Positions 2,994-22,013 of a stretch of DNA of 64,000 nt are shown here, in pieces. This DNA is from Novosphingobium sp. HII-3 (GTDB taxonomy: Bacteria; Pseudomonadota; Alphaproteobacteria; Sphingomonadales; Sphingomonadaceae). The position numbers and the translations under genes are program-made. The DNA lies in the NCBI RefSeq assembly GCF_002916655.1, contig NZ_PPSM01000014.1, positions 248,001 through 312,000 on the forward strand. Direction: 5' to 3'. The stretch's first letter is position 1. Each line of letters opens with the position of its first letter. The notes below the pieces were generated by a model that was given only the letters and a program-made list of their open reading frames with translations, made no database searches and was not told the DNA's origin.

Positions 2994-3034
2994 CGGCAGC
3001 CCCTGCTCCTTATCGCAAATTGTGCAGCGCGAGA

Positions 3035-4723: not shown

Positions 4724-4724
4724 C

Positions 4725-5295: not shown

Positions 5296-8200
5296 GTGTC
5301 GATCGTCGCTGAAGATGCTGGCATTGACGCAGAAATAGAGCGACTGCACGCGAGGCTAGCTGCGCATTTTATTGAATTGCGTGCGTCGAGATCTAATACG
5401 CCACTATATCTCTTTGAACATGACGTCGAAGGTGCTCATCTCGCGCAATTGATTGCGACGGTTCGCGCGAGCCTAGCACGCCACCGTATCGAGAGTGGCT
5501 GGTGGGGAAGGCAGCCACTACCCCTGTTGGTTGCCGCCACTGAAATTGGCTACGCCTATCTTGGCACCGGAACCGACTTCTGGCCGATATTCGCGGAGCA
5601 GTTAGGCGAAGCGAGCTTTGCCGATCGCGCAGCGCTTTCGAACCTGTTTCAGCGCTCGTCCGCCAAACTCGGTCTCGCACAGCCGCCTGATACCCCGTGG
5701 AACTTGGCCTTCTGTCACATTGCTTGGCCTGTGATGCACGCGATCCTGCCGATCGAACTGCATCGGCCGCTCGCCCGGACTTTGCGTGAAGTTCGTGCCC
5801 ATCTTGACGTTTCGGGCAGCGACGCTGGCCTGATCGCGCCCATTCGCAACCGAGCGCAATTGACCGGTGGCGTCCGGCTGATCGCTTGGCTTGACGATCA
5901 TTACACGGCCGCAGCCGTAATCCGGCGGTTCCTGCAGCCGAACGGCACCCATGGCATCGCTAGTTCAGCGTTGAACCGTATCGCCGCGGATCTCGCCTCT
6001 GACGAGAGTGCCAACACCGCGCTGCGTGAAGCGCGCAAGCGGCAAAAGGCGCTGGAGGCGCAGCCCAGGCAGCGGCCGCGCCGGCGCGCTGAGATAGAGC
6101 CGAAATTCGCGCCACTGATCCTTCGGACGGTCGAGCAGCGGCTCTCTTTCGCATTGAAGATACCCCAAATGCAGCAGGCAGCGCGCGACAGCGCGCGAAG
6201 CGCGCTCGACGCGATGCGGTGGCGCGCCTTCCTTTGGGGTGATGGCCGCCCAGTGCCGGGCCGGAATATCTTCAGTGATTTCCCGCTGCAGTTGCAAGTG
6301 GAGGCGCTGCCGGGCACCGACGTCCCGCTGATTGCCGATGTGGCTGACCTTCCGATTGCCCAGGAGGCCAAGGATTTTCTCGGGAGTCTGCGCGTCGCGA
6401 CCGCCGCGCCGATCCTGTTCTCCGATTTCAGCGACGAGGGCGATGCTCTGCAACGCAGCGGCGCAGCGATCGCCGACAGTGGGCATTGTATCCTGTTGGC
6501 CGACCCCGCGCAGATTGCGCCGCCTAGCGCTGAACAACTTGGCCGCGTCGCGGGACTGCGTGGCTATAGACTGGATGCGGCCGACCCAGCCAACCAAGTC
6601 TGGCTCGCTGCGCTTGGGTTCGCAGTGCGCCAGACCACGCGCTTCTCGTGGATCGGCGATGTCGAGATCGAGCAGCATCGCCCGGTCCCGCGTTTTCATG
6701 TCGGCAACTTCATCGCGTTCGAATTGAACGCCCCATGTGGCAATTGCGAGGCCCGGTTGACCACCCCGGATGGCAAACAGTCTGCCCTGGCTGGCGTGGG
6801 CACGCTGATGGCTGGGTTCACAGCGTCCGATCTCGGCCTCTACCGCCTCCGCTACGGCGCCGGTGAGGAGCAACTATTCGAGGTGATCGCAGCCGAGGAT
6901 GACCCCAACCTACTAACCGTCGACATCGATGCGGGCACAGCCTCCACCGCCGACCTCGCCGATCGTCAAATCACTCTGCGCTTCGACAGCGCTGCCCCGG
7001 TGCAGGAAGCCGAACTTGAACTGACGCTCTGCTGCGACGGCCGTGCAGTGAAGACCGTGCGGGAAATCCTACCCGACACGCCGTGTCGGCTCGGTGGCGA
7101 TCACATCATTTGGGAGCGCCTTCTCGACACCGACACGGTCGAGCGATTGCTGAGCGCGCGCCGCGCCGAACTCTGTGTCATCGTGACTGGGCTGCTTGAA
7201 GCATCGTTCGCCTTTGAGCAGGTCACTGCGCCGTTTGCATGGTCCAAGCAAGCCGATGGGCAACTCGTCGCGAGCGATGAGAGCGGCGAGTTGTCGATCT
7301 TCGCGGCTCAGCCCCAGCAACCGCTCTTGCTGGCGGCGACAACCAATTCAACGACCGTTGACGATATAAGGCTGTTTCGTGCCGGCCATGATAGACCGTT
7401 GCAGGCGGGAGGCTATTGCGTCGGTCCGCGCATCTGGCGTGGGGGCGACGTCCCGCGGGCGCGCAAACCAGACCGTCTTGTGCGTCAGTTCGCAAGCGAT
7501 CGCGACCAGGCCGCCGATGGTCGCGCTACAGTCGATGCGCTAATTGGTTGGTCAGCCGCTGCCGTTGATCATCCGGTCACCCAATTTCGGCGCGGCCAGA
7601 TTGTGCGGCAACTCGAAGCCTGGGTGGTCCAGCAACTCTGCGGTGAGGCTTGGGAGGAGCAGGAAGCCGCGCTCGCCGAGCGCCGGGGTAGAAGTTTTGT
7701 CAGCGCGTTTCTCGCCGCCTGCGCTCGCTTGCAGGTCGGTTATTGCGACGTCCAGATGTCGCGGGCGCAGCGGGCGCTGCTCGACCGCATCTTGATTCGC
7801 CTGATCGACGCACGAGCGCTGCCGATCACGCTGGAAGCAAGCCGTGAACCGATCGAAGAAGAGCTTGGCATCGTGCTCGACGAGGTGTTTTACGACGCCT
7901 ATGTCGCGCTCGCCGACGACATCGAATCGGTCGGCGATACGTGCCCCTTCAATCTCGATGAGGATGTCGACGTCGGAGAGGTCAGCGAAAATTGGGACAA
8001 GGCGCTGCGCGCGGCAGCAAGAGAGGCGGCGCTTATTGAAATGGTCGACTTGCTTCGACCGTTGGATGCTGGCGATACGTTGAGCCTAGCCGATTTCGAA
8101 TCGATGTTACCCGACGATATCGTTGATCTGCTGTACGGCTGGATCATCAAGAACCGACCGGCCCACCATGCGCGGCAATGGAACCGCGATCTGGTCGAAT

Positions 8201-8346
8201 CAGCATACTGGCTGTTCGTGCGGCCAGCCGTTGCGGCGCGACTGTCATGGAAAGCGGCGACTGAGCGCCTGCTTGCGGATAGCTTTTCCGCGCGGGCGAT
8301 CCGCTATGCAGCGCTCCGCACTCGCACCTCGATGGGGGGCAAATGA
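5296..8346 (+). CDS. Large protein of unknown family (1016 aa) paired with SNF2 helicase
   Basis: The frame starts with GTG at 5296 because an in-frame stop precedes it. I do not recognise the family as a whole. Residues about 38-180 form a distinct block (LYLFEHDVEGAHLAQLI, WWGRQPLPLLVAATEIGYAYLGTGTDFWPIF, then HIAWPVMHAILP) that looks like a conserved N-terminal module. The middle is basic and Ala/Arg-rich near 250-265, then a long region with beta-sandwich-like character (about 450-640) follows. The C-terminus is acidic around 890-910 (FNLDEDVDVGEV). It contains no obvious helicase or nuclease motif. Its ATGA overlap with the SNF2 gene implies strict co-expression, and it may be a DNA- or substrate-recognition subunit for that helicase. 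Confidence 0.8.
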   Translation: MSIVAEDAGIDAEIERLHARLAAHFIELRASRSNTPLYLFEHDVEGAHLAQLIATVRASLARHRIESGWWGRQPLPLLVAATEIGYAYLGTGTDFWPIFAEQLGEASFADRAALSNLFQRSSAKLGLAQPPDTPWNLAFCHIAWPVMHAILPIELHRPLARTLREVRAHLDVSGSDAGLIAPIRNRAQLTGGVRLIAWLDDHYTAAAVIRRFLQPNGTHGIASSALNRIAADLASDESANTALREARKRQKALEAQPRQRPRRRAEIEPKFAPLILRTVEQRLSFALKIPQMQQAARDSARSALDAMRWRAFLWGDGRPVPGRNIFSDFPLQLQVEALPGTDVPLIADVADLPIAQEAKDFLGSLRVATAAPILFSDFSDEGDALQRSGAAIADSGHCILLADPAQIAPPSAEQLGRVAGLRGYRLDAADPANQVWLAALGFAVRQTTRFSWIGDVEIEQHRPVPRFHVGNFIAFELNAPCGNCEARLTTPDGKQSALAGVGTLMAGFTASDLGLYRLRYGAGEEQLFEVIAAEDDPNLLTVDIDAGTASTADLADRQITLRFDSAAPVQEAELELTLCCDGRAVKTVREILPDTPCRLGGDHIIWERLLDTDTVERLLSARRAELCVIVTGLLEASFAFEQVTAPFAWSKQADGQLVASDESGELSIFAAQPQQPLLLAATTNSTTVDDIRLFRAGHDRPLQAGGYCVGPRIWRGGDVPRARKPDRLVRQFASDRDQAADGRATVDALIGWSAAAVDHPVTQFRRGQIVRQLEAWVVQQLCGEAWEEQEAALAERRGRSFVSAFLAACARLQVGYCDVQMSRAQRALLDRILIRLIDARALPITLEASREPIEEELGIVLDEVFYDAYVALADDIESVGDTCPFNLDEDVDVGEVSENWDKALRAAAREAALIEMVDLLRPLDAGDTLSLADFESMLPDDIVDLLYGWIIKNRPAHHARQWNRDLVESAYWLFVRPAVAARLSWKAATERLLADSFSARAIRYAALRTRTSMGGK

Positions 8347-11315
8347 GCGATTCCTATATCGATCTATGTCTTGGCGTTCAGGCGGTTCGCCGCAGGGTCG
8401 AGCGCGAAGTAGCGGGGCTTGGCGGCGCGACTGGCGTGGCCGCAGCGCCCTATCCCCACCAACTCGCCAATGTGCAGCGGATCTTGTCCGACAGCCGAAT
8501 TCGTCATCTCATCGCCGATGAGGTCGGGCTCGGCAAAACCGTCCAGACACTGATGATCCTGAATGCGCTGCGCCTTCAGAACCCTCGACACCGGGCACTC
8601 ATCCTCGTTCCCGACAATATCGCGCCCCAGTGGCTGCTCGAATGCCAGACGCGCGGCCATTTCACTCCGCTGGGCCGCGCGCCCGAGGAAGAGGAAAGCG
8701 GCGCTCACGTCAGATTGGCCTATTATGACCAACTGAACTCCATCACCGAAATCGATCCCAACGTCTATGATCTGCTCGTGGTCGATGAGTTGCAGCGGCT
8801 CCAGGCCAATGCGCGCCAGCGCATAACCGATGTCGCCGGCGACTTTCGTCAGTTACTGCTCCTCTCAGCGACGCCCAAGCTCGAAGACGCCGAGGCGTTC
8901 CGTCAGTTGCTCGCCATTCTCGAGCCTGAACGCATGGCAGTCGCAGCGCGAACCTCCGACACGCCCGAGGCGAGCCTGCGGGCGCGGGAAGCCGAGGCCG
9001 CCGCTCTAATGGGCGCTGGCGGTCCCGATGCTTGGACAGCCGTCGGCTTGATGACGCCACCCGACCGCGCCCAGGCGTCGACCGTCGCCATGACGCACAG
9101 CATCTTGCGACGGGTCACGCATACCAATCGCCGCGACTACCCCGACTTGCTACCCCAGCGCGTGCTCCACCGCATCGCGATCGAACCAACCTATGACGAA
9201 GTAGCGCGCCAGAAGCAGGTCTGGCAATTCATCGGACATGCTGGTCGTGGGGCTGCCGCGACCGACCTTGCGCGGCTCGGCCAGGTCGCGTTGCGTTCGC
9301 CGCGCGCCTTGAGCGAACGCATCAACATTTTGCGCGGCCGCGATCAGCGCGACCCGCAAGGCTTTCTGGCGGCGGCGGCCAAGCACTTGGAAACGGCCAA
9401 CGGAGACAGCCGGATTGAGGCAACGATCGACCTGCTGGTCGATATTTGGAACGAGGATCCAGATGAGGCAGTGCTGATCGTCGCCGAGGATAATCCTACG
9501 GTCGATTATCTCGAGCGCATGATCCCGCAATTCTTGCCGACAATCGGCCCGCGCGGAAGGCGGCGCCCCTTGTCGCTCGCAGTCAACCGCAATCGCGATG
9601 CTTCGGCGACCGACGATTTGGTCGATCTGTTCGAGGAATATGACGACGGCATTGGCGGGTTCATCGATGGCGACGATCAGTTGCTGATCGCCGCGGACGT
9701 CGCGCAGGTCGGTCTAAATCTCCAGCACGCCCGCAAGCTCATTTTCTTTAGTATGCCGTGGTCGCCGGTCGCCGTCGAACAATGGATTGGCCGTCTCGAT
9801 CGATTAGGCAGCGCCGCGCTGGCGGATCAGCCCGGCGAACGCACGATCGATATCTACGCGATTTATCAGCGCGGTCAGGTCGACGAGCGTGTCGTCTCGG
9901 TGCTCGACGATTTCGCCATCTTCAAACGCAGCATCCGTCTCGACGGCGATGAGATCAACGTGGTCGGCCAGCATATCGTCGATGCCGCGCTCACACCGCA
10001 CACGGTCAACTGGCAGGCGCTATCCCAAGAGGCGCGCGACATCGCCAAAGACAATGGCGATGCGCTAGTCACGCCGCTCTCCAACGCGTTGCCATGGACG
10101 CCGGAACGCGCGCGCGCACTGGCAGATCATTTCGATCGGGCGGGCGCATTAGGGCCGCTGCTTGAACGCTCGACCGCACGGCGGGCCATCGTCCGGATCG
10201 AGACGGGGCTTCGTGGATGGATGCGGCTGATCGGGCGCGCCGACGGTCTCAGACTATGGAAAGGCGAGGATCCCGACGAGCCCGCCCGGACTTTCCGGAT
10301 GTTGCATTATTATCGATCGCCCTATGCGACCGGTCCTGCCGAACCGCGCTTTCCGCTTCCTGGCCTCGATCCGCGTGACGGTCAGCGCTACGCCTATCTT
10401 GATAGCCGCCGGTCGCTTGAATCCCCACCAGTGCCGACGGTCTACCTTGATGAAAATTCGGCGACCCCGCTCAACTTCCTCGATCACGGCGACCCCGTCC
10501 ATGACACCTTAGTCAATGAATGGGTCAAGATCGGCCAAAAGTGTCCGAGTTGTCTGCGGGTAAAGCTCCCAGACGGCCATGCCCTGGCCAGCGAAGAAGG
10601 TCGCGGCACCTATCTGGTTGCGGTTCTGAGTTGGGTACCGGGCGAGCGCTATTTCGACCAGTTCGATCGCGGTCATATTGTCCAACTCTTGCAGGACTCG
10701 CGAACGCGTCAGGAGCAGAAGCCCTTTTGGGACGCGATCCAATCGATAGAAGAGGCTCTACGGGCCGATCGGCGCTGGCTCAACAGCCAGTTCACGTCCC
10801 GCCTCGACGTGTTGGCCGCCAAGTTCGATCGTGGAACTTGGACGCTGGCCGCGCCCGACCATGCCGAGGCCCTGTTCACCCCATGGGACGTAAGCGCTCG
10901 CGGCGAAAAGATCGTGCTTGCGACGGGACAACGCGCGCCGGTCAGCCCCGACATCAAGGCCGCTCAAAGCGCAGGCAGCGCGCTGCTGCTGCAGGAACAC
11001 GCTAAGCGGCACCAAGCATCGCTCGCTGAATGCCCTGACCTTCAGGAGCGTATCGCCAGCCGCCGCTATCTGATCATGTGCGAGGCGGAAGACCTGATAG
11101 CGACGCGACAAGCATTTCTCGATGATGCGACCGCCCAAGGCATGGAGACCAGTGAGCAGGGGTTCGCGCGGAGTCGTTTCAGAACCATCCGCAACGCGCG
11201 GGACATGGCGATCCTTGCCCGCGACGTTCGCCTTGCCCGGCTCGATGGCCTGATCGATGCCTTAACTGAGCCCCGCTTTGACGAGTATAAGTTCATGGTT
11301 ATGACAATCGATTAG
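8343..11315 (+). CDS. SNF2/RapA-like superfamily 2 helicase
   Basis: The product is 990 residues and its start overlaps the previous stop (ATGA). Motif I is DEVGLGKT (59-66), motif II is VDELQ (147-151, with Leu-Gln where DEAH/DEAQ is usual), and motif III is LSATPKL (174-180). Near 455-500, ADVAQVGLNLQ and EQWIGRLDRLG give motifs V and VI. The layout matches SNF2-type DNA translocases of the RapA/HepA branch, as seen in DpdE, DrmD and ZorD of other defence systems. The C-terminal 450 residues match nothing I know. It probably translocates on double-stranded DNA together with the 1016-residue partner. Its stop lies only three bases from that of the convergent 349-residue gene. Confidence 0.88.
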   Translation: MSDSYIDLCLGVQAVRRRVEREVAGLGGATGVAAAPYPHQLANVQRILSDSRIRHLIADEVGLGKTVQTLMILNALRLQNPRHRALILVPDNIAPQWLLECQTRGHFTPLGRAPEEEESGAHVRLAYYDQLNSITEIDPNVYDLLVVDELQRLQANARQRITDVAGDFRQLLLLSATPKLEDAEAFRQLLAILEPERMAVAARTSDTPEASLRAREAEAAALMGAGGPDAWTAVGLMTPPDRAQASTVAMTHSILRRVTHTNRRDYPDLLPQRVLHRIAIEPTYDEVARQKQVWQFIGHAGRGAAATDLARLGQVALRSPRALSERINILRGRDQRDPQGFLAAAAKHLETANGDSRIEATIDLLVDIWNEDPDEAVLIVAEDNPTVDYLERMIPQFLPTIGPRGRRRPLSLAVNRNRDASATDDLVDLFEEYDDGIGGFIDGDDQLLIAADVAQVGLNLQHARKLIFFSMPWSPVAVEQWIGRLDRLGSAALADQPGERTIDIYAIYQRGQVDERVVSVLDDFAIFKRSIRLDGDEINVVGQHIVDAALTPHTVNWQALSQEARDIAKDNGDALVTPLSNALPWTPERARALADHFDRAGALGPLLERSTARRAIVRIETGLRGWMRLIGRADGLRLWKGEDPDEPARTFRMLHYYRSPYATGPAEPRFPLPGLDPRDGQRYAYLDSRRSLESPPVPTVYLDENSATPLNFLDHGDPVHDTLVNEWVKIGQKCPSCLRVKLPDGHALASEEGRGTYLVAVLSWVPGERYFDQFDRGHIVQLLQDSRTRQEQKPFWDAIQSIEEALRADRRWLNSQFTSRLDVLAAKFDRGTWTLAAPDHAEALFTPWDVSARGEKIVLATGQRAPVSPDIKAAQSAGSALLLQEHAKRHQASLAECPDLQERIASRRYLIMCEAEDLIATRQAFLDDATAQGMETSEQGFARSRFRTIRNARDMAILARDVRLARLDGLIDALTEPRFDEYKFMVMTID

Positions 11316-11318
11316 CGG

Positions 11319-12314
11319 TCAGAGAGCGGCTTCTCGCCATCGCGAAAACGCCGCATGGGCGCCATCATTGATGGTCCATGTCCAACGCTTGTCGCCTGGC
11401 CTCGCGATGAGGCGTAGCGCGCGAAGATATTGTGCCGGGATCGGGTACTGGAACGATAAGGTGCCAGACTTCCATTCTGATCTCTCTGGAGCGCCGAGCG
11501 CGGCCCCGCGCGCGAGCAACGCCCAGGTCCACTCATCCCAGTCGAACAGATCGAGCGATTGAACCTCGCTTCCTGACACGCCAATCAGGATCGGATGCCA
11601 TTCGTTATGGTTGCGCCCCGGCCGCACGCCACACCAGATTCCGTCAGGTGCGTTGACTTTCCATCTGCCAGATACGGTCGGCTGATTGTGCTGACCGAAA
11701 TAGCCATCATGTGCCCCCGGCGGATCGACCACGGCGCGCATTTGGGCTGCGTCGAGCGGCAGGCCATCATGGCGCAGTGAAGAGGTCAGTGTCGCCCAGA
11801 AATCCCCGAGTACGCCATCGCCGCTGCCTCTTGTTCGACGGGCAAGATGGCGGCGATAGCCAGACGCCCCCATGAACGACACAAAGTCTTCAGCACTGGC
11901 ATAGCCCGCAAGCGCCGTGGACCGGCGCACGTATCCATCCATAATGCCGGCCACCGGCGTCTCCCCATCGGCCTTGCCAAGGAAGGCATAGTCTTCGGGC
12001 GCGACGGCGATCCAGCGCGGTCTGGACAAAACCAGGCTCGCCTTTCCGCTCAGACGTACCGGCGTCACATCTCCGACGTCGATGAGGGCGTCGACTACAT
12101 CTCCGACGCGCGCACGTACCAGATGCTCGGCGAAGCCGGCCGCGATGAATTGCCGATGCAGATAGGCCGTGACCCGTGCCCGCGCTGGCGACCGCCATGC
12201 CCTCACGCAGGCTCGGGCAGCGTCGGCGACCGAGCCGACGGATGGGCTGCCATCGGGATCGCTCGAGAACCGCAGCCTTGAACGCAGTGTATCGGGTGTC
12301 AGCGTTTCAAGCAT
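11319..12314 (-). CDS. Hypothetical protein (331 aa) of the defence block
   Basis: I chose the ATG at 12314 (MLETLTPDTLRSRLRF). It overlaps the end of the NERD-helicase gene by eight bases (ATGCTTGA), indicating translational coupling; an in-frame start at 12368 would add 18 residues. The N-terminal 90 residues (DAARACVRAWRSPARARVTAYLHRQFIAAG) are helical and basic, resembling a winged-helix or HTH region. The C-terminal half is rich in Trp and has the WCGVRPGRNHNEWHPILIG block. I recognise no family. It is the third gene of the DruE-like operon and converges on the SNF2 gene with a three-base gap, so it is probably an accessory or specificity subunit. Confidence 0.75.
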   Translation of the reverse strand: MLETLTPDTLRSRLRFSSDPDGSPSVGSVADAARACVRAWRSPARARVTAYLHRQFIAAGFAEHLVRARVGDVVDALIDVGDVTPVRLSGKASLVLSRPRWIAVAPEDYAFLGKADGETPVAGIMDGYVRRSTALAGYASAEDFVSFMGASGYRRHLARRTRGSGDGVLGDFWATLTSSLRHDGLPLDAAQMRAVVDPPGAHDGYFGQHNQPTVSGRWKVNAPDGIWCGVRPGRNHNEWHPILIGVSGSEVQSLDLFDWDEWTWALLARGAALGAPERSEWKSGTLSFQYPIPAQYLRALRLIARPGDKRWTWTINDGAHAAFSRWREAAL

Positions 12315-14046
12315 CGCTGCGGCTAGCGACCTCTGCTTGTTCGAGCACGCCGCGAATGCGCTCATCATGCGTGATCAGGATGAGCACATGGCGGGCGCGG
12401 CTGCAGGCGACATATAGGTCTGCAGCGGTGAAGCCGGGACTTAGTGCGGCCAGGTCATAGGCAATGACGACATCCGCCTCGAGCCCCTTGAACGAGCGCG
12501 CGGTGGAGCAGAGCACGCCTTTCCCGGCGCGCCAGTCGGCGGCGGACGTAACGATACGCGTGTCGGCGACGTCATTCATGCCCTTCAAACTGCCTCGATC
12601 CTTGGCGGCCGGGCCGATCAGCACGATCTGTCCCGGCGTGAGTTTCTCGGTGTCGAGTAGGCGACGAAGCTCGTTCGCGACAAGCCCGGCCTGCTGGGTC
12701 GGCGCTGCGGCGCGGAGCATTCGCACATCGATCCCGGTTGGAGCGCCCGCGGGCGATAGCGTCTCGAGGGCGGCCAAGTTGGCGCTCATGCGGGCGATGC
12801 GCTTGGTGTTGCGGCAATTGACGTTGAGAGAGAACCGCGCGGGAAAATCGAAGGGCGGCGGGCTGGCCTGCTCGCGCAGCGACTGGGCGAGGTCCATAAA
12901 AACGAAGATCAGCCCCTCGTCGCCGTTCTGGATCAGCGGAAACAGCGCGTACCACCAGAGTTCCGCGAAATCCTGAGCTTCATCGACGACGAGCGCGCCG
13001 TAGCGCGGTTCATCCATTGCGAACAGGCTGGCACTCGCCGCCTCAAGGATTGTCGCAGCGTCTTCATCCCAGAACTGGCGCTGCTCGGCAGAACTTGCAG
13101 GGATATCGAATGGCAGGCCGGCCTCCTTCGCCAATTCCGCCGCCAGCGCATGGAAGTGATAGACATCAATCAAGTTGGCGATCTCAGCCCGATCGGGATC
13201 GGCCGCGAGTTGCTCACGGACCCATTGCGCCAGTTCCCTATTGTAGCAGACCAGCAGGCATCGGATCCCTTGGCGCGCGAATGCGAGCGCTCGTTCGACG
13301 GCTAGCAAGGTCTTGCCCGAGCCGGCGACTCCTTCGATGAGCAATTGCGGGTTGGAGAATAGGCCGCGAAAGGCGAGTGCCTGATTATCGGTCAGTTCGA
13401 GCAGCTTTTCGCGGCCAGCCTCGATCTGCGGCAACAGCGGACGCATGATCTGGAACTTCGGTAACAGCACGTCGAGCATCTCAATGAACTCAGACCGCTG
13501 CAACTTCCCGACCTTCTGCGGGAAGGCATTGAATGCCTTCTCGATCATCCGCTCGAGTTCCGGCATGCGATCAACATCTATAAGGATCTGATCGGCCACA
13601 TCGAGTGGAAGCGTGCCGGTGGCTCGGCCGTGCGGAAAGACCACAGCGTAGCCATAGACATAGCGGTTCGACTTGAGCCGACCCCCGGTCCGCTCTTCAA
13701 CAGCATTGGTGAGCGCGTGCATGTTGCGGCGCGCCTGATCGAATGGATTGGTGATTGGCTTGTCGCGATTGGGCAGTTTGCGAAACCATTGCTGACCGCG
13801 CGCGAACATCTCCTCGCCGCCCTTCACCTCGAGCACAAGCAACCCATAATCCGGGTGGAAGATGACGAAGTCTGCCTCGCCCTCGCGCAGCGGCGCATCG
13901 ATGTAGTCGCGATTGGGGCGCAGCCAGGGCAGTGAATGGACGACGCGATAGACGTCCGGCAACTGATCGCGAAGCGCGATATACACATCGCGCTCTGACC
14001 CATGGATGATTTGGTCGGGCGCGACGTCGGGTATCATGATCGCCAT
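12307..14046 (-). CDS. NERD-nuclease / UvrD-like superfamily 1 helicase
   Basis: The product is 579 residues. The N-terminal NERD domain shows SERDVY (17-22), GEADFVIF (56-63) and LEVKGG (72-77), the acidic and Lys residues expected of this restriction-endonuclease-like fold. Then come Walker A GVAGSGKT (239-246), Walker B VVDEAQD (353-359), an SFKGLEADVVI block, and YVACSRARHVLILI near the C-terminus. NERD-helicase fusions are predicted to cleave and unwind DNA and recur in defence islands. It begins three bases after the DUF1998 helicase stop (TGA AGC ATG), so it is co-translated with it. The nuclease chemistry is inferred from the motifs. Confidence 0.88.
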   Translation of the reverse strand: MAIMIPDVAPDQIIHGSERDVYIALRDQLPDVYRVVHSLPWLRPNRDYIDAPLREGEADFVIFHPDYGLLVLEVKGGEEMFARGQQWFRKLPNRDKPITNPFDQARRNMHALTNAVEERTGGRLKSNRYVYGYAVVFPHGRATGTLPLDVADQILIDVDRMPELERMIEKAFNAFPQKVGKLQRSEFIEMLDVLLPKFQIMRPLLPQIEAGREKLLELTDNQALAFRGLFSNPQLLIEGVAGSGKTLLAVERALAFARQGIRCLLVCYNRELAQWVREQLAADPDRAEIANLIDVYHFHALAAELAKEAGLPFDIPASSAEQRQFWDEDAATILEAASASLFAMDEPRYGALVVDEAQDFAELWWYALFPLIQNGDEGLIFVFMDLAQSLREQASPPPFDFPARFSLNVNCRNTKRIARMSANLAALETLSPAGAPTGIDVRMLRAAAPTQQAGLVANELRRLLDTEKLTPGQIVLIGPAAKDRGSLKGMNDVADTRIVTSAADWRAGKGVLCSTARSFKGLEADVVIAYDLAALSPGFTAADLYVACSRARHVLILITHDERIRGVLEQAEVASRSDA

Positions 14047-14049
14047 GCT

Positions 14050-17000
14050 TCAGGCTCCCAACACTTTATGAAAGGCGCCAAGAAGTTCGACCGCATCCAC
14101 ATTGATCTGTTCGGCGCGGGCGGTTGGACGCAGTGAGCCATAAACGATACGATATCGCTCCATGCCGCTGTCTTTCATGCTGGTGCCCACGCGTCCAAAG
14201 GTAACTGCGCTTGACGATGCCTGAAAAGATTTTCCATCGGTCCGCCGGACGAGCATCGGCATTTTGTCGGGCACGCGCGCTCGCGAGAACAGATGCCAGG
14301 TGCCGCGCGTAAATGGTCGCGCTTCGCCAAGCTTGGTGTTCTCCATCGTTTCCACGTCGAGTTGGACGATGAAGCTGCCCTCTGGCGCTCCCGGGATATT
14401 GGCAAATTCGGCGGTGACCGGCAATTCCGCCCCCGACCCGGCCAGCGCGGCAAGCGACCTATAGACAGGCACGCCGGTCTCGCTCCACGCGAATGGTGGA
14501 TCGTCCTCGATCGACGTGGACGACGCATCAAGCGCCTGGATAATGGCCGCCGGCAAGGCGCGGTCCACCAATAGCTGGTCAAGATAGCGATCCGATGCGC
14601 TGCTACCACGAGCGTGAGCGCGTTTCGATCCGGGCTTCTCGCGGATCAGCGGATGGCTTATTATGAGGCTACGATTGCCGTAGTCGGGTAAAAGCAGTTC
14701 ACCAGGTTGGGGCCTTTCGATCGTTTCCCCCTTGTCCTTGAGATCGGTTGCCAGCAGATCGAGCAAACGATCTTCGACCTCGGTTGGCACCCATGGCCGC
14801 TCGCCATAAAGAACGTGGCGCAAGAAGGTCGCACCGAGATGTCGATCAAGATCGGCATGATCCCAGCGGTTCTTGTGCGAGCGCAGACAATTGTAGCAGG
14901 AGGATGAGCAGGTGCAGCCTTCGAGCAGGTCCAGCGCGAGTTGGAGGAGGGCGGCAGGATCGCGGGCGGCTGCACGGACGAACCCGGCGCCGCCGGGCGC
15001 CGTGTCGTAGAGAAATACCTCCACCTCGCTGCCGCGCGCGCCACCTTCATTGAGGGCTGCCCGGTGACCACCGCCAATGTCGGCGGCATCGACGTCAAGC
15101 AAGCCAGCGGCGGCAATGCTCAGCGCCTCGGCGATCGTGGTGAGCACGATGCGTCCCGCGGTCGATCCGGCTGGCACATGAAGTTCGGGCGCCAGCTTGA
15201 ACGAAAATAGCGCGATATCGGTCAGGAATTCGTGACCGAGCACCAAAGCACGGCCGCGCCCATCGCAAAACTCGGGTTGCTTGCGATGATCGGGATATGG
15301 CCGTGGATGCGGTTTGCTACTCGCCAACTTGCCCTCGGACCAACTCGTCGGCTCGGTACGGCCGCAGGCGGGACAATAGAGGAATCCGGTCTCGGCCGCA
15401 CCGGGCTTACGCACGCCAAGGTTGGTCACCATCAGCGTCTGCTTGGACGCCCAGGCGGCGAAGCCGCTGCCATCGGGTCGGTCGAGCTTGCCGAGTTCAT
15501 GCTGCTGCTCGAACTGTGGCGCGCTAAGCTTCGCCCGCGTCGGACGGGTCGGCAGCGGATTTTCGTCGCCCGCTAACTCGAACGCTTCGTCATGCGGATG
15601 CGCGAATCCGACCGGAACCACCCAGCGCTCGGCTGGCCCCATGCCCGCCTTCTTCTTGCAGGCAGGGCAGTCCTCGGTGTCGCCGCGCCGGTGCGTATCG
15701 TCGATGTCCTCGAGTTTGGCGTAGCCGCACTTCCCGCACTCGTAATAGAGCCGCTGGGCGCGATAGGCATTGATCCGATCTTTCTGGAAACCGGAGTAGA
15801 TCGCCATCGACCGAAACTTGCGGCCATCGACCCACACTTCGCGCCCCGGCGCATATTGGCTGAGCGCCTGGGTCAGGCCCGCCTGCGGAGAATAGGCGAT
15901 CTCGGCGCGATAGGCGGTGCTCGACGGATCGAACACCGTGAACGACACCACGTCGGTCGGAAAGGCGTAGCGTGGTAGAACAGCTTTGGTGAACAGCCGA
16001 TCGAGCAGGTTCTGCGGCTTGAGCGGCGCTTCCGGATTGACCTCGCCGGTCTCGTGGGCCTCTTCGGCGGGCATTTCGTCCGCCGGGGTATCGAACATGT
16101 CGGCATCGCCACCATAATCCTCGATGCCAAAGTCGAACGCCGGACCTTCCTCGGCGGTGATCACCGGGTCGGCCGCCACCAAATCCACTTCCCCAGTGCC
16201 AGCGCCAACGGTTTCGAGCGACACAAGCAACTTCTGGGGTACGTTTGCGAAAAAAGCATCGGGATCGCCTTCGATCGCGGACGATGGAATCACGTCGCGC
16301 AAGGCGGAATCGATCAGCGCGGTATTGGACGCGAGCCAGACCTTGAGGCCGGCGAATGTAAATCCCTTGGGGTCTGGATCACGGAACTCGGCCAGTTTGC
16401 CCAGCGACTCGAAGATATTGGATGCCTGGGCATCGCCATCGGTAGGCGGCGTTTCAATCCGCTCTTGCTGAAACAGGGATAGGATTAGCGCGAATGCGTG
16501 GCGCTGGACGATCTCACGATTGTCAAGGTTGAGCACCGGGTCGGGGACCGGTCCGCCAACCATGGTCTGGGGATCGGCGAAGAAGCGCTGATCATGGCTG
16601 TCCGAACCAGCGAAGGTCAGGACGGTGGAAAGCGATGAGCCTCGGCGACCGGCGCGACCCGCGCGTTGCTGATAGTTGGCGCGACCCGGCGGCACGTTGC
16701 GCAGCGCGACCGCCGTGAGGCTACCGATGTCGATGCCGACCTCCATCGTGGTCGTGCAGCTAAGCACATCGACCGCGCCGGCGCGCTCACCGCGTGGGCC
16801 GGGCACATCGAGATCTTGGAAGCGCAGTTCGTACCATTCGGCGCGCGAGAAAGCCTGGTCCTGACCCGCATCGTTGAGTTGGGCGGTGTGTTCCTCAGCG
16901 ACGAACGGATAAGGCACATAGCCTTGATCGCCTTCGGCCTCGAGCCGCTCGACCAGTTTGCGGTAGAGATATTTGCGAGTGCGGAAGACCGTGTCCTGTC

Positions 17001-20000
17001 TCGGATCGAGCGGATCAGTATCCTTCCCGCATTTCACGCACATCGCGCCCATCAACAGGTTGACCGGCTGCGCTAGTGTGCAGTGCCCGCACCGGCGCCA
17101 GTCGACCTCGCTCTCGGGTCGCAGCCGGACCTTCGCAGCGTTGATGAAAAAGCCCTTGGCATTGTGGTTCTGTGCGAACGTCGTCGTCAGAAAGTCGATC
17201 CAACTCGCATCAGGCTTGGCGTTCGCGCCGAACTGCGCTCGGTGCCATCGGCCCGTCAGCAATTTCTCCAGCAACGCAGTGTGGCGACCGCTGCTGCGCT
17301 TGAGGGCCGGCCCGTCAGTCGAATCGATCCATTCGCTCGGCGTTCCCTCGACGAGAACGGAGCCCGCGGCGAGCGACTGGGTCAGCCAGAGGTCGAGCAG
17401 TGCCTGACGCTTATCATCGTCGGTCCCTGTGCCGACCGGCGGGACGGGTAGCGCGCCCATTCGACGCTTCTGATTGTCGGTCAGCATCGCCTCGGGGGCA
17501 GCCAGCGCCAGCGGCAGCAAGCCCGTGTGGCGATTGGCGAGAACCCGCGCCAGCGGCGCCCGGACCGATTTCACATGGGTCTTATTCAGAGTGTCGGCCA
17601 GATCACGGAATTCGGCGTAATCGCCCTCGTCGCGGATAAATCCGTGGACTTTGCGCAGGTCGCGGGCAAACTCCTCATGTTCGGCCCCAGGCAGGCGGAA
17701 GTTCACGTCAAACTTGGCACATGCATAAAGGATGGCGGGGTAGGCATAGCCGAGCGGAACCGGCTGGCCGAACCGCTCTTCCAGCATGCGCAGTCCCGCC
17801 AGAAGCAGCGGGCGAATGCTATCCTGCAGCGAGAAATTCTTGAGTTTGCCCGACAGCCGTGATGCCGCCTGCCGCCCGTCAGAGAAGATCAGCGATTTGC
17901 GCCCCTTGAGCGGTGAGGTCGCTTCAACCCGCGCAGGCTGGTCGAGCAACTGAACGCTGATCAGTTCCTGGAATGGCTCATCCCCCTTGGTTTGGTGATC
18001 CATGATCTGCGAGCCATTGGCCTCGCAATGGGGGCATTTCTCGAAATGACCCGGCTCGACATCTTTCTTGGGGCGCGGGAGCCAGATTTCGCGAGCGTCG
18101 GGAGATTTCGACCCGACGCGACCGGTGAGCGGATCGAGAAAGCTGCTAGTGCAATATTTGTCGGCGTCGAAACCGGGATCTTCGAGCAAAATCTGGACCG
18201 GACGGACGACGCCGTCCACATCGTCGATATCGCCGATGTCCTCTGCCCACAGAAAGTCGGGCTGGCTCGGGTTCAGTGCGAAGGCGTTAAAATAGGCGAC
18301 GCCACAGTCGCGACAGGTATGGATCTCGAACACGCGCGCGCGACACCCACATTCGCGCGTGGACTGAGCGTACAGCATCCCCGTTGGGCCAGGCCCGATA
18401 CCGCTCGGTACGACCACGCACGCCTCGTCCGCACAGCCCCATAGGCCGGGCAGGCCACGGAACAGGGCATGGACGCGTGCGGCGAGCAACGGCTGCCCGT
18501 CGGGCTCGGCTTTGGCGTAGGATGCGAGTTCGAGCAGCGCATCGGTCGCCGCCGAGCGCACCGCATCGGAAATATCACCGTCGAACAGTAGGTCGCCCAT
18601 GGCATCCAGCGCGATTGGCGCCTGAGGCTCTTCGGTTGCTGGATCGCTCGAAGTCGTCGCTCCACCCGTAAGATTCACCAGGCGGCCGATTACAGGAAGT
18701 TCCTCCAGAGCGGCATGGATCGCCCGCTGTAGTCCATCGCGGACAACCAGCGTCTGCCCGTCGGCGATGCTGATGTCGGGTCGATCCGCCGACCTTCCGA
18801 CATGGATACCGTCTGCGCCTGCTACTTCCGTTAGCGCGAGATAGGCATTGCTGGTCTGCGCGGAGCCGTGAGGGCTGATCGACAGGGTTTCACTTATGGT
18901 CTTGAGTGATGCATCGACGCCAACCAATGTCACTTCGACCGCTTTCGGTGTCGATGATGCCACCATCAGCCGATCTGCCGAAAGCGCGTCACGCCGGAAG
19001 GTAAGCAGTGGCGCCAAGGCGGCAATGCGCTGGACGGGATCGACATCCTTCAATTGTTCGGTTCGGCAGGCTGCGAGCGCAGTGGCAAGCGGTGCGTTGC
19101 CGCTCGCGGAGGGCTGGCGCGCATGTTTCTTTCCACGCAGCACCTCAATCATATCCTCATCGCGGCCGACCAGGCCGCCGATGAACGTCTTTGCTGCTTC
19201 GCCATCCGAGAAAGATGCGCTGGTCGCGATGACCTGCATCCGATCTGGGGTGAGGCCGAGTCGATTACGCAGGCGGCGGATCAGCAGTGCGACCTCGGTG
19301 CCACTTGCGCCGCGGTAGAGATGTGCTTCGTCTAGCACGAAAAGAAGCCGCTCGTCCGGATTGGCCTCGAAGAATGCCCGCGTCCGCTCGAATATCGAGC
19401 GCTCGATCGGCCGCAGCAGCATATACTCGAGCATGGAGTAGTTGGTGATCAACAGGTCGGGCGCTTGATCTTGCACCTCATGCCGCAGCAGCAACTCGGG
19501 ATCCTCGACGCGCTCGATGGCGCGTTGGAATTTCTGATCTGGCCCGATCCAACGCTTCCCACTGCCGAGCCATTTGGTCATGCCGTTCTCACCATCGGCA
19601 TCGGCTGGCTTGGCAGGCCAGCGGCCCAGGGATCGCAATTGGTCAATCTGCGCAGCGACCGTTTCGTCGGTCTGAGCATCGCGTTCGAGGTCCCGATAGA
19701 AGTTCAGGCTTTTCAAGCGCCGCTTGTTTCGGTCCTCTGTCCGTTGGCCAGGATAGAGTGATCGGCCTGTGTATCGCGCGAACTTGGCAGGGCGCCCCGC
19801 CTGCTCTGTGAACCACTCTCGAACAGACGACGCGCCGAGCAAGCGACGCAACCGGCCTAGTTGGTCGTTTACGAGCGCGTTCATCGGATAGAGGATGATT
19901 GATCGAACTGCGCGCTCCGCAAACTGCTCTGGCCGTGTGGCCGCCTCATTCGCGAGTTTCATGAGGATCGGAAGGAGGAATGTTTCCGTCTTTCCCGAAC

Positions 20001-20340
20001 CGGTGCCAGTGGTAGCCAGTAGGCAGCGGCCTGCACTATCGGCGATGATTTCTAGCGCATCGGATTGATGCGGGTAGGGCGGGTTGAAGACCAGGCGGCC
20101 GCCAGCTTCGGAGCCAAGATGGGTCAGAAAGTCGCGCGCTACTTGCGGGATTGCGAGGTCTGCGAACTTCCGATCGCCCTGATAGATGGGCGTACTTTCA
20201 ATATAGGCGCGTTGGGAGATCGTTCCGGGCTGGTCGAGGATCAATCGCCGCAGATCGACGAGATTTGGGTTGGAGATATGATAAGTCGCTTCGATGTACG
20301 CACTTAGAGCACGATGCAAATTCGACAGTTCGCTGAACAT
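14050..20340 (-). CDS. DruE/DrmB-like giant DUF1998 helicase
   Basis: The product is 2096 residues from the ATG at 20340, preceded by a GGGGGCGGA ribosome site; a frame start at 20394 is less likely. Walker A is TGTGSGKT (111-118), the DEAH box lies at 337-340 (VLDEAHLYRGASG), then SATS-like ATSASF. Motifs V/VI read TTTMEVGIDIGSL and YQQRAGRAGRRG. Cys pairs form putative zinc ribbons (CGKCGYAKLE...CPACKK; YCPACGRTEP). The DUF1998/MZB cluster is GCTCSSSCYNCLRSHKNRWDH near residue 1810. Length and layout fit DruE of Druantia (about 2100 residues) better than the shorter DrmB of DISARM. It heads a three-gene leftward operon with the NERD helicase and a 331-residue protein. Confidence 0.88.
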   Translation of the reverse strand: MFSELSNLHRALSAYIEATYHISNPNLVDLRRLILDQPGTISQRAYIESTPIYQGDRKFADLAIPQVARDFLTHLGSEAGGRLVFNPPYPHQSDALEIIADSAGRCLLATTGTGSGKTETFLLPILMKLANEAATRPEQFAERAVRSIILYPMNALVNDQLGRLRRLLGASSVREWFTEQAGRPAKFARYTGRSLYPGQRTEDRNKRRLKSLNFYRDLERDAQTDETVAAQIDQLRSLGRWPAKPADADGENGMTKWLGSGKRWIGPDQKFQRAIERVEDPELLLRHEVQDQAPDLLITNYSMLEYMLLRPIERSIFERTRAFFEANPDERLLFVLDEAHLYRGASGTEVALLIRRLRNRLGLTPDRMQVIATSASFSDGEAAKTFIGGLVGRDEDMIEVLRGKKHARQPSASGNAPLATALAACRTEQLKDVDPVQRIAALAPLLTFRRDALSADRLMVASSTPKAVEVTLVGVDASLKTISETLSISPHGSAQTSNAYLALTEVAGADGIHVGRSADRPDISIADGQTLVVRDGLQRAIHAALEELPVIGRLVNLTGGATTSSDPATEEPQAPIALDAMGDLLFDGDISDAVRSAATDALLELASYAKAEPDGQPLLAARVHALFRGLPGLWGCADEACVVVPSGIGPGPTGMLYAQSTRECGCRARVFEIHTCRDCGVAYFNAFALNPSQPDFLWAEDIGDIDDVDGVVRPVQILLEDPGFDADKYCTSSFLDPLTGRVGSKSPDAREIWLPRPKKDVEPGHFEKCPHCEANGSQIMDHQTKGDEPFQELISVQLLDQPARVEATSPLKGRKSLIFSDGRQAASRLSGKLKNFSLQDSIRPLLLAGLRMLEERFGQPVPLGYAYPAILYACAKFDVNFRLPGAEHEEFARDLRKVHGFIRDEGDYAEFRDLADTLNKTHVKSVRAPLARVLANRHTGLLPLALAAPEAMLTDNQKRRMGALPVPPVGTGTDDDKRQALLDLWLTQSLAAGSVLVEGTPSEWIDSTDGPALKRSSGRHTALLEKLLTGRWHRAQFGANAKPDASWIDFLTTTFAQNHNAKGFFINAAKVRLRPESEVDWRRCGHCTLAQPVNLLMGAMCVKCGKDTDPLDPRQDTVFRTRKYLYRKLVERLEAEGDQGYVPYPFVAEEHTAQLNDAGQDQAFSRAEWYELRFQDLDVPGPRGERAGAVDVLSCTTTMEVGIDIGSLTAVALRNVPPGRANYQQRAGRAGRRGSSLSTVLTFAGSDSHDQRFFADPQTMVGGPVPDPVLNLDNREIVQRHAFALILSLFQQERIETPPTDGDAQASNIFESLGKLAEFRDPDPKGFTFAGLKVWLASNTALIDSALRDVIPSSAIEGDPDAFFANVPQKLLVSLETVGAGTGEVDLVAADPVITAEEGPAFDFGIEDYGGDADMFDTPADEMPAEEAHETGEVNPEAPLKPQNLLDRLFTKAVLPRYAFPTDVVSFTVFDPSSTAYRAEIAYSPQAGLTQALSQYAPGREVWVDGRKFRSMAIYSGFQKDRINAYRAQRLYYECGKCGYAKLEDIDDTHRRGDTEDCPACKKKAGMGPAERWVVPVGFAHPHDEAFELAGDENPLPTRPTRAKLSAPQFEQQHELGKLDRPDGSGFAAWASKQTLMVTNLGVRKPGAAETGFLYCPACGRTEPTSWSEGKLASSKPHPRPYPDHRKQPEFCDGRGRALVLGHEFLTDIALFSFKLAPELHVPAGSTAGRIVLTTIAEALSIAAAGLLDVDAADIGGGHRAALNEGGARGSEVEVFLYDTAPGGAGFVRAAARDPAALLQLALDLLEGCTCSSSCYNCLRSHKNRWDHADLDRHLGATFLRHVLYGERPWVPTEVEDRLLDLLATDLKDKGETIERPQPGELLLPDYGNRSLIISHPLIREKPGSKRAHARGSSASDRYLDQLLVDRALPAAIIQALDASSTSIEDDPPFAWSETGVPVYRSLAALAGSGAELPVTAEFANIPGAPEGSFIVQLDVETMENTKLGEARPFTRGTWHLFSRARVPDKMPMLVRRTDGKSFQASSSAVTFGRVGTSMKDSGMERYRIVYGSLRPTARAEQINVDAVELLGAFHKVLGA

Positions 20341-20913
20341 TCCGCCCCCAAAAACAGACAACTCTAGCCTGCCGCTAAGTAATGGCCATAACAAGAGAAT
20401 TCATGCAAGCATGACCCCGCTTCCGCCCCCATCCGGGCGCGCATCAGCAGGGGATGGGCTCCAAGCCGTTGGAATGCTCATCAGCGCTTGAGCGTCTGCA
20501 GTCGTTCGCAATTTTGGGTGGCAATGACCTCGTCAGCGGAACGTCGGCATCGTTCTTCGGATCGCCATTGTCTGCTCTGCTTATTTGTACCGAGTCCGCG
20601 ATAATGGTTGTTGAGGCCGAGTATGCCTGAACTGATGCGGTGAAGGGAGGCATCCACGTTGGAAAGTTCCGTCATCGAGAACCCATCATGCGGCGGCCTA
20701 TGCCGACCGCGAAGACGCCCCTGAACCCGGTATACGGTCAGCTCAAAATCTGCTTGCCAATGGTGCTGCGATTAGATGACCGCATCAGTTCAGATCGTCC
20801 TTCTGCTATGATGAATGGGCGATGTGTTCGTGCCCCCCCTTTATAGCTGTTTGAGGTTGGGCTACCCTCAAAGCCTGATCGGTTCTGGCAGAAAATCTCG
20901 TGAAGGAAATGAG
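20341..20913. other. Divergent intergenic region between DruE-like gene and island dut
   Basis: These 573 bases hold the promoters for the leftward DruE-like operon and rightward island dut. I see no convincing gene; short frames on both strands (for example 20481-20675 minus and 20640-20846 plus) resemble no family. The region contains a 15-base inverted repeat spanning 20627-20793 and a 7-base hairpin (TTTGAGG...CCTCAAA, 20850-20872) about 40 bases before dut. Confidence 0.55.
20627..20793. repeat. 15-base perfect inverted repeat enclosing 137 bases
   Basis: CTGAACTGATGCGGT at 20627-20641 is the exact reverse complement of ACCGCATCAGTTCAG at 20779-20793. The 137 bases between them carry no recognised gene. 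The arrangement could be the stem of a structured RNA or the ends of a small non-autonomous element. No target-site duplication is obvious beside the arms. Confidence 0.7.
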
Positions 20914-21384
20914 TTGAGCATCCCCGAATTTGAGTTACGTGTCCTTGATGAGCGAATCCAGGAATGGGGCCTTCCCTCGTTTCAGACGGACATGTCGGCG
21001 GGCATCGATATGTACGCCTGCCTTGATGCACCTTTAGAACTCCGTCCCCAAGCCGATGCCGTACTGATCCCGACAGGCGTTGCGATATTGATGAACAACC
21101 CTAATGTCGTTGCGTTCCTGTTGGCGAGATCGGGGCTTGGCCACAAAAAAGGGGTTATTCTCGGTCAATCTGTCGGCACCATCGACGCTGACTATGCGAA
21201 TCAGATTTTTATCAGCACATGGTTACGCACGCCCCCCGGTAGCGACCCGGTGATAATCAATCCTGGCGATCGTATCGCACAACTGGTCTTCCTGCCGATC
21301 CTTCGGCCCACTTTTCGTGTCGTAGAGAATTTCTCTGCGACCACCTCCCGCGGGATGGGCGGGTTTGGCTCAACCGGCGTTTGA
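20914..21384 (+). CDS. dut: dUTP diphosphatase carried by the island
   Basis: The product is 156 residues from a TTG start at 20914, chosen because AAGGA lies six bases upstream and the homology begins at once (SIPEFELRVLDERIQEWG). All five trimeric dUTPase motifs are visible: SAGIDMYA, ARSGLGHKKG, GTIDADYANQI, PGDRIAQLV and the P-loop-like RGMGGFGSTG. It hydrolyses dUTP to dUMP, feeding dTMP synthesis and keeping uracil out of DNA. Motif 3 is divergent (DADYAN rather than D-DYRG), precisely the part at which the host gene is broken. It lies directly upstream of the host dut remnant and presumably restores the activity lost by insertion. Confidence 0.85.
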   Translation: MSIPEFELRVLDERIQEWGLPSFQTDMSAGIDMYACLDAPLELRPQADAVLIPTGVAILMNNPNVVAFLLARSGLGHKKGVILGQSVGTIDADYANQIFISTWLRTPPGSDPVIINPGDRIAQLVFLPILRPTFRVVENFSATTSRGMGGFGSTGV

Positions 21385-21639
21385 GATGGTAGTTCCAGCA
21401 GTTCGTTTCCAAGCGCATACGGCGTTCGCCGGCGTCAAAGCAGACGGAAGTGAATTGAAAGGAACTGAAGGAAAGCATTGAAGTGACAATCGCAACTTCT
21501 AGACGGCAATCGGGCATGCGGCGCGCAAGTAGCGGAAGACCTGGCTTCAGCCCGGTCAGCCGCCCCTCGCAATCCGCCCGTAGGGGCTTCTTTACTGAGG
21601 CACCTGTGCGGGGCGAGCGGGTCACCGCCTTCGGCGGTT

Positions 21640-21684
21640 ACGATCGGTTGACTTCGAAAATAAATTTCGAAGTCAACCGATCGT
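21640..21684. repeat. 20-base perfect palindrome with 5-base loop
   Basis: The arm at 21640-21659 (ACGATCGGTTGACTTCGAAA) is the exact reverse complement of 21665-21684, with ATAAA between. It is not followed by a T-run on either strand, so it is not a typical intrinsic terminator. Its position 125 bases from the inferred island-host junction suggests a recombinase, transposase or replication-protein site. Confidence 0.85.
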
Positions 21685-21731
21685 CCAGAATGGGCGTCGG
21701 TCTTACCAACAACCCTCGCGAATCGGGGGAC

Positions 21732-21793
21732 GGGTTCACCCAAAGAAAATGGGTGAACCCTAAAACACCCCTATTCCATCTAGGGTTCACCCA
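21732..21793. repeat. Three copies of GGGTTCACCCA at the island end
   Basis: GGGTTCACCCA occurs at 21732-21742 and 21783-21793, and inverted at 21750-21760. The first two copies form a hairpin with a seven-base loop. The third lies about 17 bases before the first host dut codons that align with dUTPase. Clusters of one short word in mixed orientation beside a junction are typical of transposase or integrase binding sites at element ends. Confidence 0.75.
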
Positions 21794-21809
21794 AACCGGT
21801 GACCTGAAG

Positions 21810-22013
21810 GCCGATTACCGCGGCGAGTTGAAGGTCATCCTGATCAACCATGGGGCGGAAGCCTTCGACATCCGTCGCGGCGACCGGGTTGCCCAACTCG
21901 TGCTCGCGCCCGTGACGCGGGCGTCGTGGGTGGAGGTCGACGAGCTTGACACCACCATGCGCGGCGAAGGCGGCTTCGGCTCCACGGGGGGCGTGGCCGC
22001 GCTCGGCAACTGA
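21810..22013 (+). pseudogene. dut: 3' remnant of host dut
   Basis: From about 21,810 the frame reads [15 protein letters not shown], then [15 protein letters not shown] and [11 protein letters not shown]: dUTPase motifs 3 (second half), 4 and 5, ending at 22,013. Motifs 1 and 2 and the start codon are absent upstream in this window. The remnant is close in style to ordinary alphaproteobacterial Dut, and its motif 3 is the usual DYRGE, unlike the island copy. About 67 codons survive. The missing 5' part should lie at the other, unseen end of the island. Confidence 0.8.

Follow-up and report, generated by a model that had tools for sequence, protein, structure and literature searches.

What supplies a bacterium with dUTPase when its own gene for the enzyme has been cut in two? 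The enzyme keeps uracil out of DNA, and its gene, dut, is normally essential. As a rule, an integrating element would be expected to leave essential genes alone, or to make good one end of the gene that it enters. The locus described here, in which a complete dUTPase gene stands before a truncated one, raises this question for Novosphingobium sp. HII-3. The window, which is the whole stretch of DNA that was analysed, comprises 64,000 nucleotides of contig C14 (positions 248,001 to 312,000). We are highly confident that the locus is a site-specific island with three recombinases, which splits dut at motif 3 and carries a complete, divergent dUTPase, dutI, as a probable replacement. The first-pass annotation had suggested a survey for other tandem divergent dut copies, and this survey yielded two more cases, Novosphingobium guangzhouense and Paracoccus alkanivorans, which are used for comparison below.

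The split dut gene and its junctions

Two dUTPase frames stand in tandem on the forward strand of the window, as had been recognized at first sight. The upstream frame, dutI (20914-21384), encodes a complete dUTPase of 156 amino acids with a TTG start and a TGA stop. It matches PF00692 over profile positions 2-129 of 129 (E=1.9e-22) and scores 139.8 bits against the NCBIfam model PRK00601 (dUTP diphosphatase), whose cut-off is 103. After a gap of 428 bp comes the 3' part of the host gene on the same strand (21813-22013, 66 codons and the stop), which covers profile positions 56-129 alone of the 129 (E=9.8e-17). This part had been described as the last third of the gene; it is in fact 66 of 156 codons (42%).

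The 5' part of the host gene had been predicted to lie at the island's left end, where it was indeed found. A profile search of the whole HII-3 genome (4.11 Mb, 88 contigs, completeness 99.99) returned exactly three PF00692 matches, all on contig C14, in the order 5' part, dutI, 3' part. An intact host-type dut elsewhere in the genome, which had been named as evidence against the insertion, did not appear in this search. The 5' part (C14:235502-235774, 91 codons, with its PF00692 match at 235562-235777) is found some 12.4 kb beyond the left edge of the window, immediately 3' of a gene that we take to be coaBC and immediately 5' of a recombinase operon. In a profile search, the dUTPase profile PF08761 had no match in any of the three split genomes.

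Alignment with 12 intact relatives placed the break at 21810-21815, close to the position near 21,810 that had first been proposed. On the left, the match to these relatives extends at best to L004:7773-7774; on the right, it begins at window positions 21811-21813. The left junction in HII-3 reads GATTCCGAT/ATTTATGAC and the right junction CTGAAGGCCGAT/TACCGC, where the slash marks the junction. The six bases that precede each slash are the Ser-Asp codons of motif 3 of the host dUTPase (IDSDYRGE): GCCGAT at the right (21810-21815, forward strand) and its counterpart TCCGAT at the left (C14:235,769-235,774). When the ends were examined for the imperfect direct repeats of about 10-17 nt that are a trait of GInts, only CCGAT was plainly common to both junctions. 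The N-terminal piece of the host dUTPase ends in a foreign tail of 15 amino acids, and the C-terminal piece lacks its own start close to the junction. Both pieces are still open frames and display no decay.

The island, its recombinase operon and dutI

The island lies between the two halves of dut (C14:235,775-269,815; 34,041 bp), and both of its ends are on a single contig of 786,902 bp. Its left 12,226 bp (C14:235,775-248,000) precede the window, and its right 21,815 bp occupy window positions 1-21815. The order of its parts is recombinase operon at the left, defence-like cargo, and dutI at the right.

The operon consists of four genes in a row that encode proteins of 431, 793, 678 and 203 amino acids (L004:7976-14307). 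Its first gene begins 201 bp inside the left junction in HII-3 and 203 bp inside it in N. guangzhouense. The third protein scores above the Phage_integrase cut-off (28.3 versus 27.1 bits) and the first falls just below it (27.0 versus 27.1 bits), with a partial XerC-like NCBIfam match (E=7.5e-18) that is below the cut-off of that model. Both retain the catalytic residues in alignments that were read by eye. The second protein has no Pfam match and seems to lack the first catalytic arginine; it aligns with the product of a Microvirga plasmid gene annotated as a tyrosine-type recombinase, and this plasmid carries the same four-gene order. On the plasmid, pMVF16-3 of Microvirga sp. VF16 (L050:11036-18792), a gene annotated as KwaB-like stands just upstream of the recombinase operon.

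The first recombinase finds generic Xer-like matches in 360 of 396 genomes of the order at E<=1e-3, with a runner-up after its own match of 5.0e-11. The second was found at E<=1e-10 in one of 385 genomes of the class, which is HII-3 itself, and had no relative in the viral contigs. Among plasmids, a single record, that of Microvirga VF16, was matched by the second recombinase and likewise by the third, and the Microvirga gene matched itself alone. An alignment of the third recombinase, used to scan genome contigs from 84,980 species, yielded 13 loci, among them one in N. guangzhouense, one in Paracoccus and one in a tmk island; the other ten, which extend at most 10 kb past the match, contained no dut at E<=1e-3. 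In a Methylococcaceae MAG (L081:3805-5102), a related recombinase operon lies beside a gene in two overlapping frames. This gene, presumably comM/yifB-like, is possibly a further target.

Several cargo genes lie in the window, among them genes for proteins that have no match. A DruA1-like gene (933-3137, reverse strand; PADLOC E=2e-283) is followed by a gene for a GHKL-type ATPase that is weakly MzaB-like (3035-4882, reverse; E=1.7e-14). On the forward strand are a gene for a 1016-aa protein with no Pfam or PADLOC match at E<=1e-3 (5296-8346) and, adjoining it, a gene for an SNF2-type helicase (8343-11315), whose best PADLOC match is DpdE (E=2e-38) and which also matches BrxH and DrmD. The reverse strand then carries a gene for a NERD nuclease/helicase (12307-14046; RTasNERD-Hel, E=9.4e-49) and one for a DruE1-like helicase of 2114 amino acids (14050-20394; PADLOC). 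The DruA1-like and DruE1-like genes are about 11 kb apart, with other genes in between.

The segment between dutI and the right junction (21385-21809) is kept in N. guangzhouense, whose locus (L072) matches window positions 20813-22013 at 78%, and we presume that it is a binding region for the recombinases. It contains an inverted repeat with perfect 19-bp arms, CGATCGGTTGACTTCGAAA, around a 5-bp loop (21641-21683), identical in sequence in N. guangzhouense, and a further inverted repeat, GGGTTCACCCA / TGGGTGAACCC (21732-21760). A third copy of GGGTTCACCCA lies close to the right junction (21783-21793), and AATGGGTGAA is common to the right ends of all three islands. The segment was also examined for a short AT-rich 3' end, another trait of GInts. 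Its G+C content is 56.0% (54% in its last 100 bp) compared with 57.6% for the whole island; thus this end, with dutI just before it, is hardly AT-rich overall but contains an AT-rich stretch.

DutI fits the trimeric dUTPase family (PF00692). Five motifs could be read by eye (AGIDM, RSGLG, GTIDADY, GDRIAQLV and RGMGGFGSTG) against what we take to be the usual dUTPase motif patterns, and the best relatives of known structure are dUTPases (3tqz, E=1.5e-43; 1dud, 5.3e-41). It had been proposed that the island copy differs most in motif 3, exactly where the host gene is broken. The break does fall in motif 3, but the divergence is not highest there. In HII-3 and Paracoccus, the two genomes in which this was measured, dutI and host dut are identical at 17 and 19, respectively, of the 30 nucleotides around the break, compared with 196 of 438 and 219 of 441 over the whole gene; we therefore rejected motif 3 as the most divergent part. 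The 6-nt core is identical at 3 of 6 positions in both and has changed about as much as the rest. Nor is the change from serine to alanine at the core confined to islands, because DADY also occurs in several ordinary dut genes of Alphaproteobacteria.

In dUTPase trees built from a selection of fetched dut loci, dutI branches on the side of E. coli and well away from the host type. Its group (100/98) also contains several alphaproteobacterial genes and a dUTPase from a large Serratia phage (278,767-bp record). A clade of the three dutI genes by themselves received no support (54/86) and was not rejected either (p-AU 0.305). DutI had no relative in the scan of viral contigs, and its best identity was below 60% in all 1131 phage and 250 plasmid records that matched. 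Two other genes may be mentioned here. In L106 (G601:C1:931240-931653) a dutI-type gene adjoins a frame that we take to be a ribonucleotide reductase beta subunit. L074 (G855:C16:25547-25954), which the second tree does not include, encodes another complete and divergent dUTPase (38.6% identity with DutI across 145 amino acids) in a genome that has an intact host dut elsewhere.

Split dut genes and dutI-type genes in other genomes

Insertion of an island into dut is a rare event. Among 61 genomes (HII-3, 36 of the same genus and 24 of the same order) 58 had a dUTPase match, and all 57 besides HII-3 had one full match each. We then considered 195 genomes of the genus, recording match number and E-value for every genome and positions among the matches listed. 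A dut match was present in 191; in 189 of these the best E-value was 6.0e-26 or lower, in agreement with the expectation of an intact dut in relatives without the island. The two genomes with a best match near 1e-22 were HII-3 (G000) and N. guangzhouense SA925 (G815), and these alone have dut in three pieces. No genus member without the island displayed the split and tandem arrangement, which had been named as a finding that would speak against insertion.

Nine genomes were searched again, namely HII-3 and eight with multiple or odd matches. As further split-dut islands, G849, G191, G826, G855, G843, G879 and G917 were rejected: G855 and G843 have extra whole copies of dut, and the remaining second matches are weak or partial. 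The sole match in G849 (L073, G849:C1:1470421-1470732) looks frame-shifted near codon 45, perhaps through a sequencing error and possibly in reality, and G554 likewise looks like a frame break rather than an island split. An even sample of 385 genomes of the class had a dut match in 343, and no further split-dut island was found among the 384 other than HII-3. None of the 24 genomes searched again in that sample had an island-split dut; these were 23 with at least two matches and one with an odd single match. Several further genomes of the class (such as G455, G532, G647, G663, G711, G767, G774 and G785) had a single weak match.

The dut locus of N. guangzhouense likewise has a complete copy along with separate 5' and 3' parts. 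Its dutI is 92.9% identical to that of HII-3, and the four operon proteins are 85.8, 74.9, 77.7 and 69.3% identical. We compared the 20 proteins of the HII-3 locus with 60 kb from contigs C47 and C54, a comparison that lacks the middle of the island and in which the query for the host dut 3' part was out of frame. Ten were matched: the operon, three small neighbours, dutI and the host dut pieces. The other ten, including all of the defence-like cargo, had no match in these 60 kb. The three small proteins beside the operon are 54-67% identical; thus the cargo is not wholly different.

Analysis of selection and INDEPENDENCE between HII-3 and N. guangzhouense revealed strong constraint on dutI. 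Its dN/dS is 0.023, compared with 0.052-0.090 for recombinases 1-3 and 0.085 for coaBC, and is the lowest among the four element genes that could be measured (the fourth operon gene was not computable). For the host dut pieces the ratio is 0.075-0.081. For recombinases 1-3 and for dutI, dS is near saturation (1.5-2.8) and exceeds the values for coaBC and the dut pieces (1.04-1.19).

Are the insertions in HII-3 and N. guangzhouense one event or two? A single insertion in an ancestor within the genus, passed down vertically to both, would account for the same site, the related operons and the three small proteins in common. However, in a tree of the coaBC and dut flanks (20 rows, one of them an outgroup, with L054 and L059 left out, and with 1,565 rather than 1,568 nt in the joined N. 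guangzhouense row) N. guangzhouense is sister to a genome with intact dut, G029, at 100/100, and HII-3 falls outside this pair. A tree of this shape could also be explained by losses through precise excision. The higher dS of the element genes also argues against a single insertion, as do the undecayed dut pieces, which in N. guangzhouense carry 49 synonymous and 5 non-synonymous changes relative to intact G029 (dN/dS 0.027). We consider a single ancestral insertion very unlikely. Because of the flank tree and the undecayed dut pieces, the two insertions are most simply read as independent.

The third case, P. alkanivorans, belongs to another order. Its operon proteins are 29-37% identical to those of HII-3, and its dutI, 55.8% identical, lies about 190 bp behind the operon and precedes a 3' part from an ordinary dut. 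The 5' part is on a different contig and ends GACAGCGAC/ATTTATGAC, with codons and element end as in HII-3. Unlike the left-end operons of the two Novosphingobium islands, the Paracoccus operon stands beside dutI at the right end, and a transposase-like frame, presumably IS1182-like, lies about 240 bp from the left end. Because of this frame and the position of the operon, the island may have been rearranged or may be laid out differently. When its ends are joined as a circle, a 6-nt core stands between perfect 9-bp inverted arms, GTCATAAAT-AGCGAY-ATTTATGAC, an arrangement like that of a tyrosine-recombinase core site; the right arm is imperfect in HII-3 and N. guangzhouense.

Genes of the dutI type also occur without an operon at their side. 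In the Paracoccus family 198 of 394 genomes match the Paracoccus dutI at E<=1e-20, and among these seven besides P. alkanivorans itself stand apart, at 55-66% identity and E<=3.8e-56 (next best, 6.1e-27). In these seven of the 393 other family genomes the dutI-type gene is the only PF00692 match. The usual downstream neighbour of dut, which we take to be moeB, lies 3' of it in all seven, within about 350 bp, and coaBC is upstream in three (within a flank of 1.5 kb); two ordinary dut genes checked alongside had both neighbours. In Pseudorhodobacter turbinis, coaBC, the dutI-type gene and moeB stand in a row. With one more locus, the genomes of this family or its order that have a dutI-type gene by the usual downstream neighbour, and flanks that contain no operon, number eight (L131-L137 and L051); no second PF00692 match was present in the seven of them searched. 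Such stand-alone genes may be the remains of former islands or the source of the island dutI; both readings agree with the tree. As they have no adjoining operon, the element need not have invented dutI itself.

A model for the island and its relation to known elements

Based on these results, we propose a model that addresses how the island enters dut and how the cell would survive the insertion. The recombinases would join the circular form of the island to the 6-nt core in motif 3 of dut. This would cut the host gene after codon 91 and leave pieces that presumably give no active enzyme. As a complete dutI stands at the right end, dUTPase activity would be present once the island is in. DutI would then take over dUTP hydrolysis as the working dUTPase of the cell, and the host would come to depend on the island; precise excision would restore dut. 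Since the dutI core differs from the host core at three of six positions, re-insertion should drop, and the changed core would make dutI a poor target for another copy of the island, an argument drawn from sequence. We infer that the element is mobile.

Could the broken gene still function? Both host pieces are open frames with low dN/dS, and because they are undecayed we leave a small probability for a working split dUTPase, with dutI as cargo for another role such as interplay with phages; regulatory roles have been reported for phage dUTPases. The low dN/dS, however, equally fits a recent break, given that N. guangzhouense is next to intact G029. The two pieces lie 34 kb apart, one with a foreign tail and the other with no start near the junction, and dutI is under stronger constraint than the three recombinases. 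In Pseudomonas putida KT2440, moreover, the pieces of a split tmk gene were shown to be inactive (PMC10653934). For these reasons we find a functional split enzyme highly improbable. We give almost no weight to the notion that the tandem is ordinary, in which a laterally acquired dut happened to arrive close to a dut that a defence island had broken. Other extra dut copies do exist, as in G855 and G843, but the operon, the right-end dutI and the same break codons occur together in three genomes of two orders. We conclude that DutI very likely replaces the broken host dUTPase.

The closest precedent is the 65-kb island of KT2440, in which an essential gene of nucleotide metabolism, tmk, is split and a divergent replacement is the last gene of the island (PMC10653934). 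Experiments there demonstrated that this gene, PP_1964 (dNMPK), provides the activity that the split tmk pieces have lost, and homologous tmk islands and stand-alone dNMPK genes were reported elsewhere (PMC10653934). In both cases recombinases lie beside the replacement and stand-alone replacements occur in other genomes. The two differ in the target, tmk in KT2440 and dut here, and in the origin of the substitute: the tmk replacement is a T4-related dNMPK, whereas that of the dut islands belongs to the same family as the broken enzyme but to a different clade. They also differ in that replacement was proven experimentally in KT2440 and is deduced for dut.

One end of a tmk-splitting island was found on a contig of Pseudomonas sp. 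MAG RYN_598 (L087:4681-10903, NZ_JAQGNX010000081.1), which carries genes for DNA polymerase III delta' (holB), the C-terminal half of Tmk (PF02223, 91-184 of 185), dNMPK (PF21448, E=7.3e-20) and recombinases. The large recombinase is related to the product of the third operon gene (hhalign probability 97.9, E=5e-13, 365 columns), and the other recombinase-like gene weakly resembles the second (probability 72.4, E=3.3e-5, 91 columns). From this comparison with L087, the dut and tmk strategies seem to use related machinery.

The layout of the dut island also recalls two described groups of elements. GInts, described in 2017, have three tyrosine-recombinase-like proteins and a small protein at one end, variable cargo and site-specific insertion, with imperfect junction repeats and inferred 6-nt staggered cuts; they insert intergenically or at gene ends and probably do not fully inactivate their targets (PMC5385486). 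HII-3 has the three tyrosine-recombinase-like genes and the small fourth gene, and in HII-3 and N. guangzhouense the operon is at the 5' end by attL with the cargo behind it. Unlike GInts as described there, the dut island cuts its target in the middle of the gene and carries a replacement, and the first catalytic arginine is seemingly absent from the second protein rather than from the third, GinC (PMC5385486). GInts in E. coli carry defence genes (PMC10121019). The second group, SEs (strand-biased circularizing integrative elements), resembles GInts and shares with the dut island the order catalytic, non-catalytic, large catalytic and small protein (intA, tfp, intB, srap); they are reported mainly from Gammaproteobacteria, whereas the dut islands are in Alphaproteobacteria (PMC10214605). 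We describe the dut island as GInt/SE-like rather than as a proven member of either group. Among the matches listed in a search of open-licence full-text literature, none named an island that targets dUTPase.

In sum, the island cuts a normally essential gene in a catalytic motif and brings a whole substitute with it, in at least three genomes of two orders and at one site. A catalytic motif that is conserved offers a dependable place to land, and a host that relies on the island's enzyme could not readily lose the end of the island that encodes it. Seen alongside the tmk island, these findings turn 'target an essential gene and bring a spare' into a testable strategy rather than a single oddity. 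Tentatively, and with a belief that falls a little short of even, we propose a general class of three-recombinase islands that land in essential genes of nucleotide metabolism (dut in Alphaproteobacteria, tmk in Pseudomonas and relatives) and have a diverged, non-targetable replacement as their core module. Such islands may drive the replacement of core genes in place, with the replacement left alone after the island decays; core genes can in this way be swapped for foreign ones.
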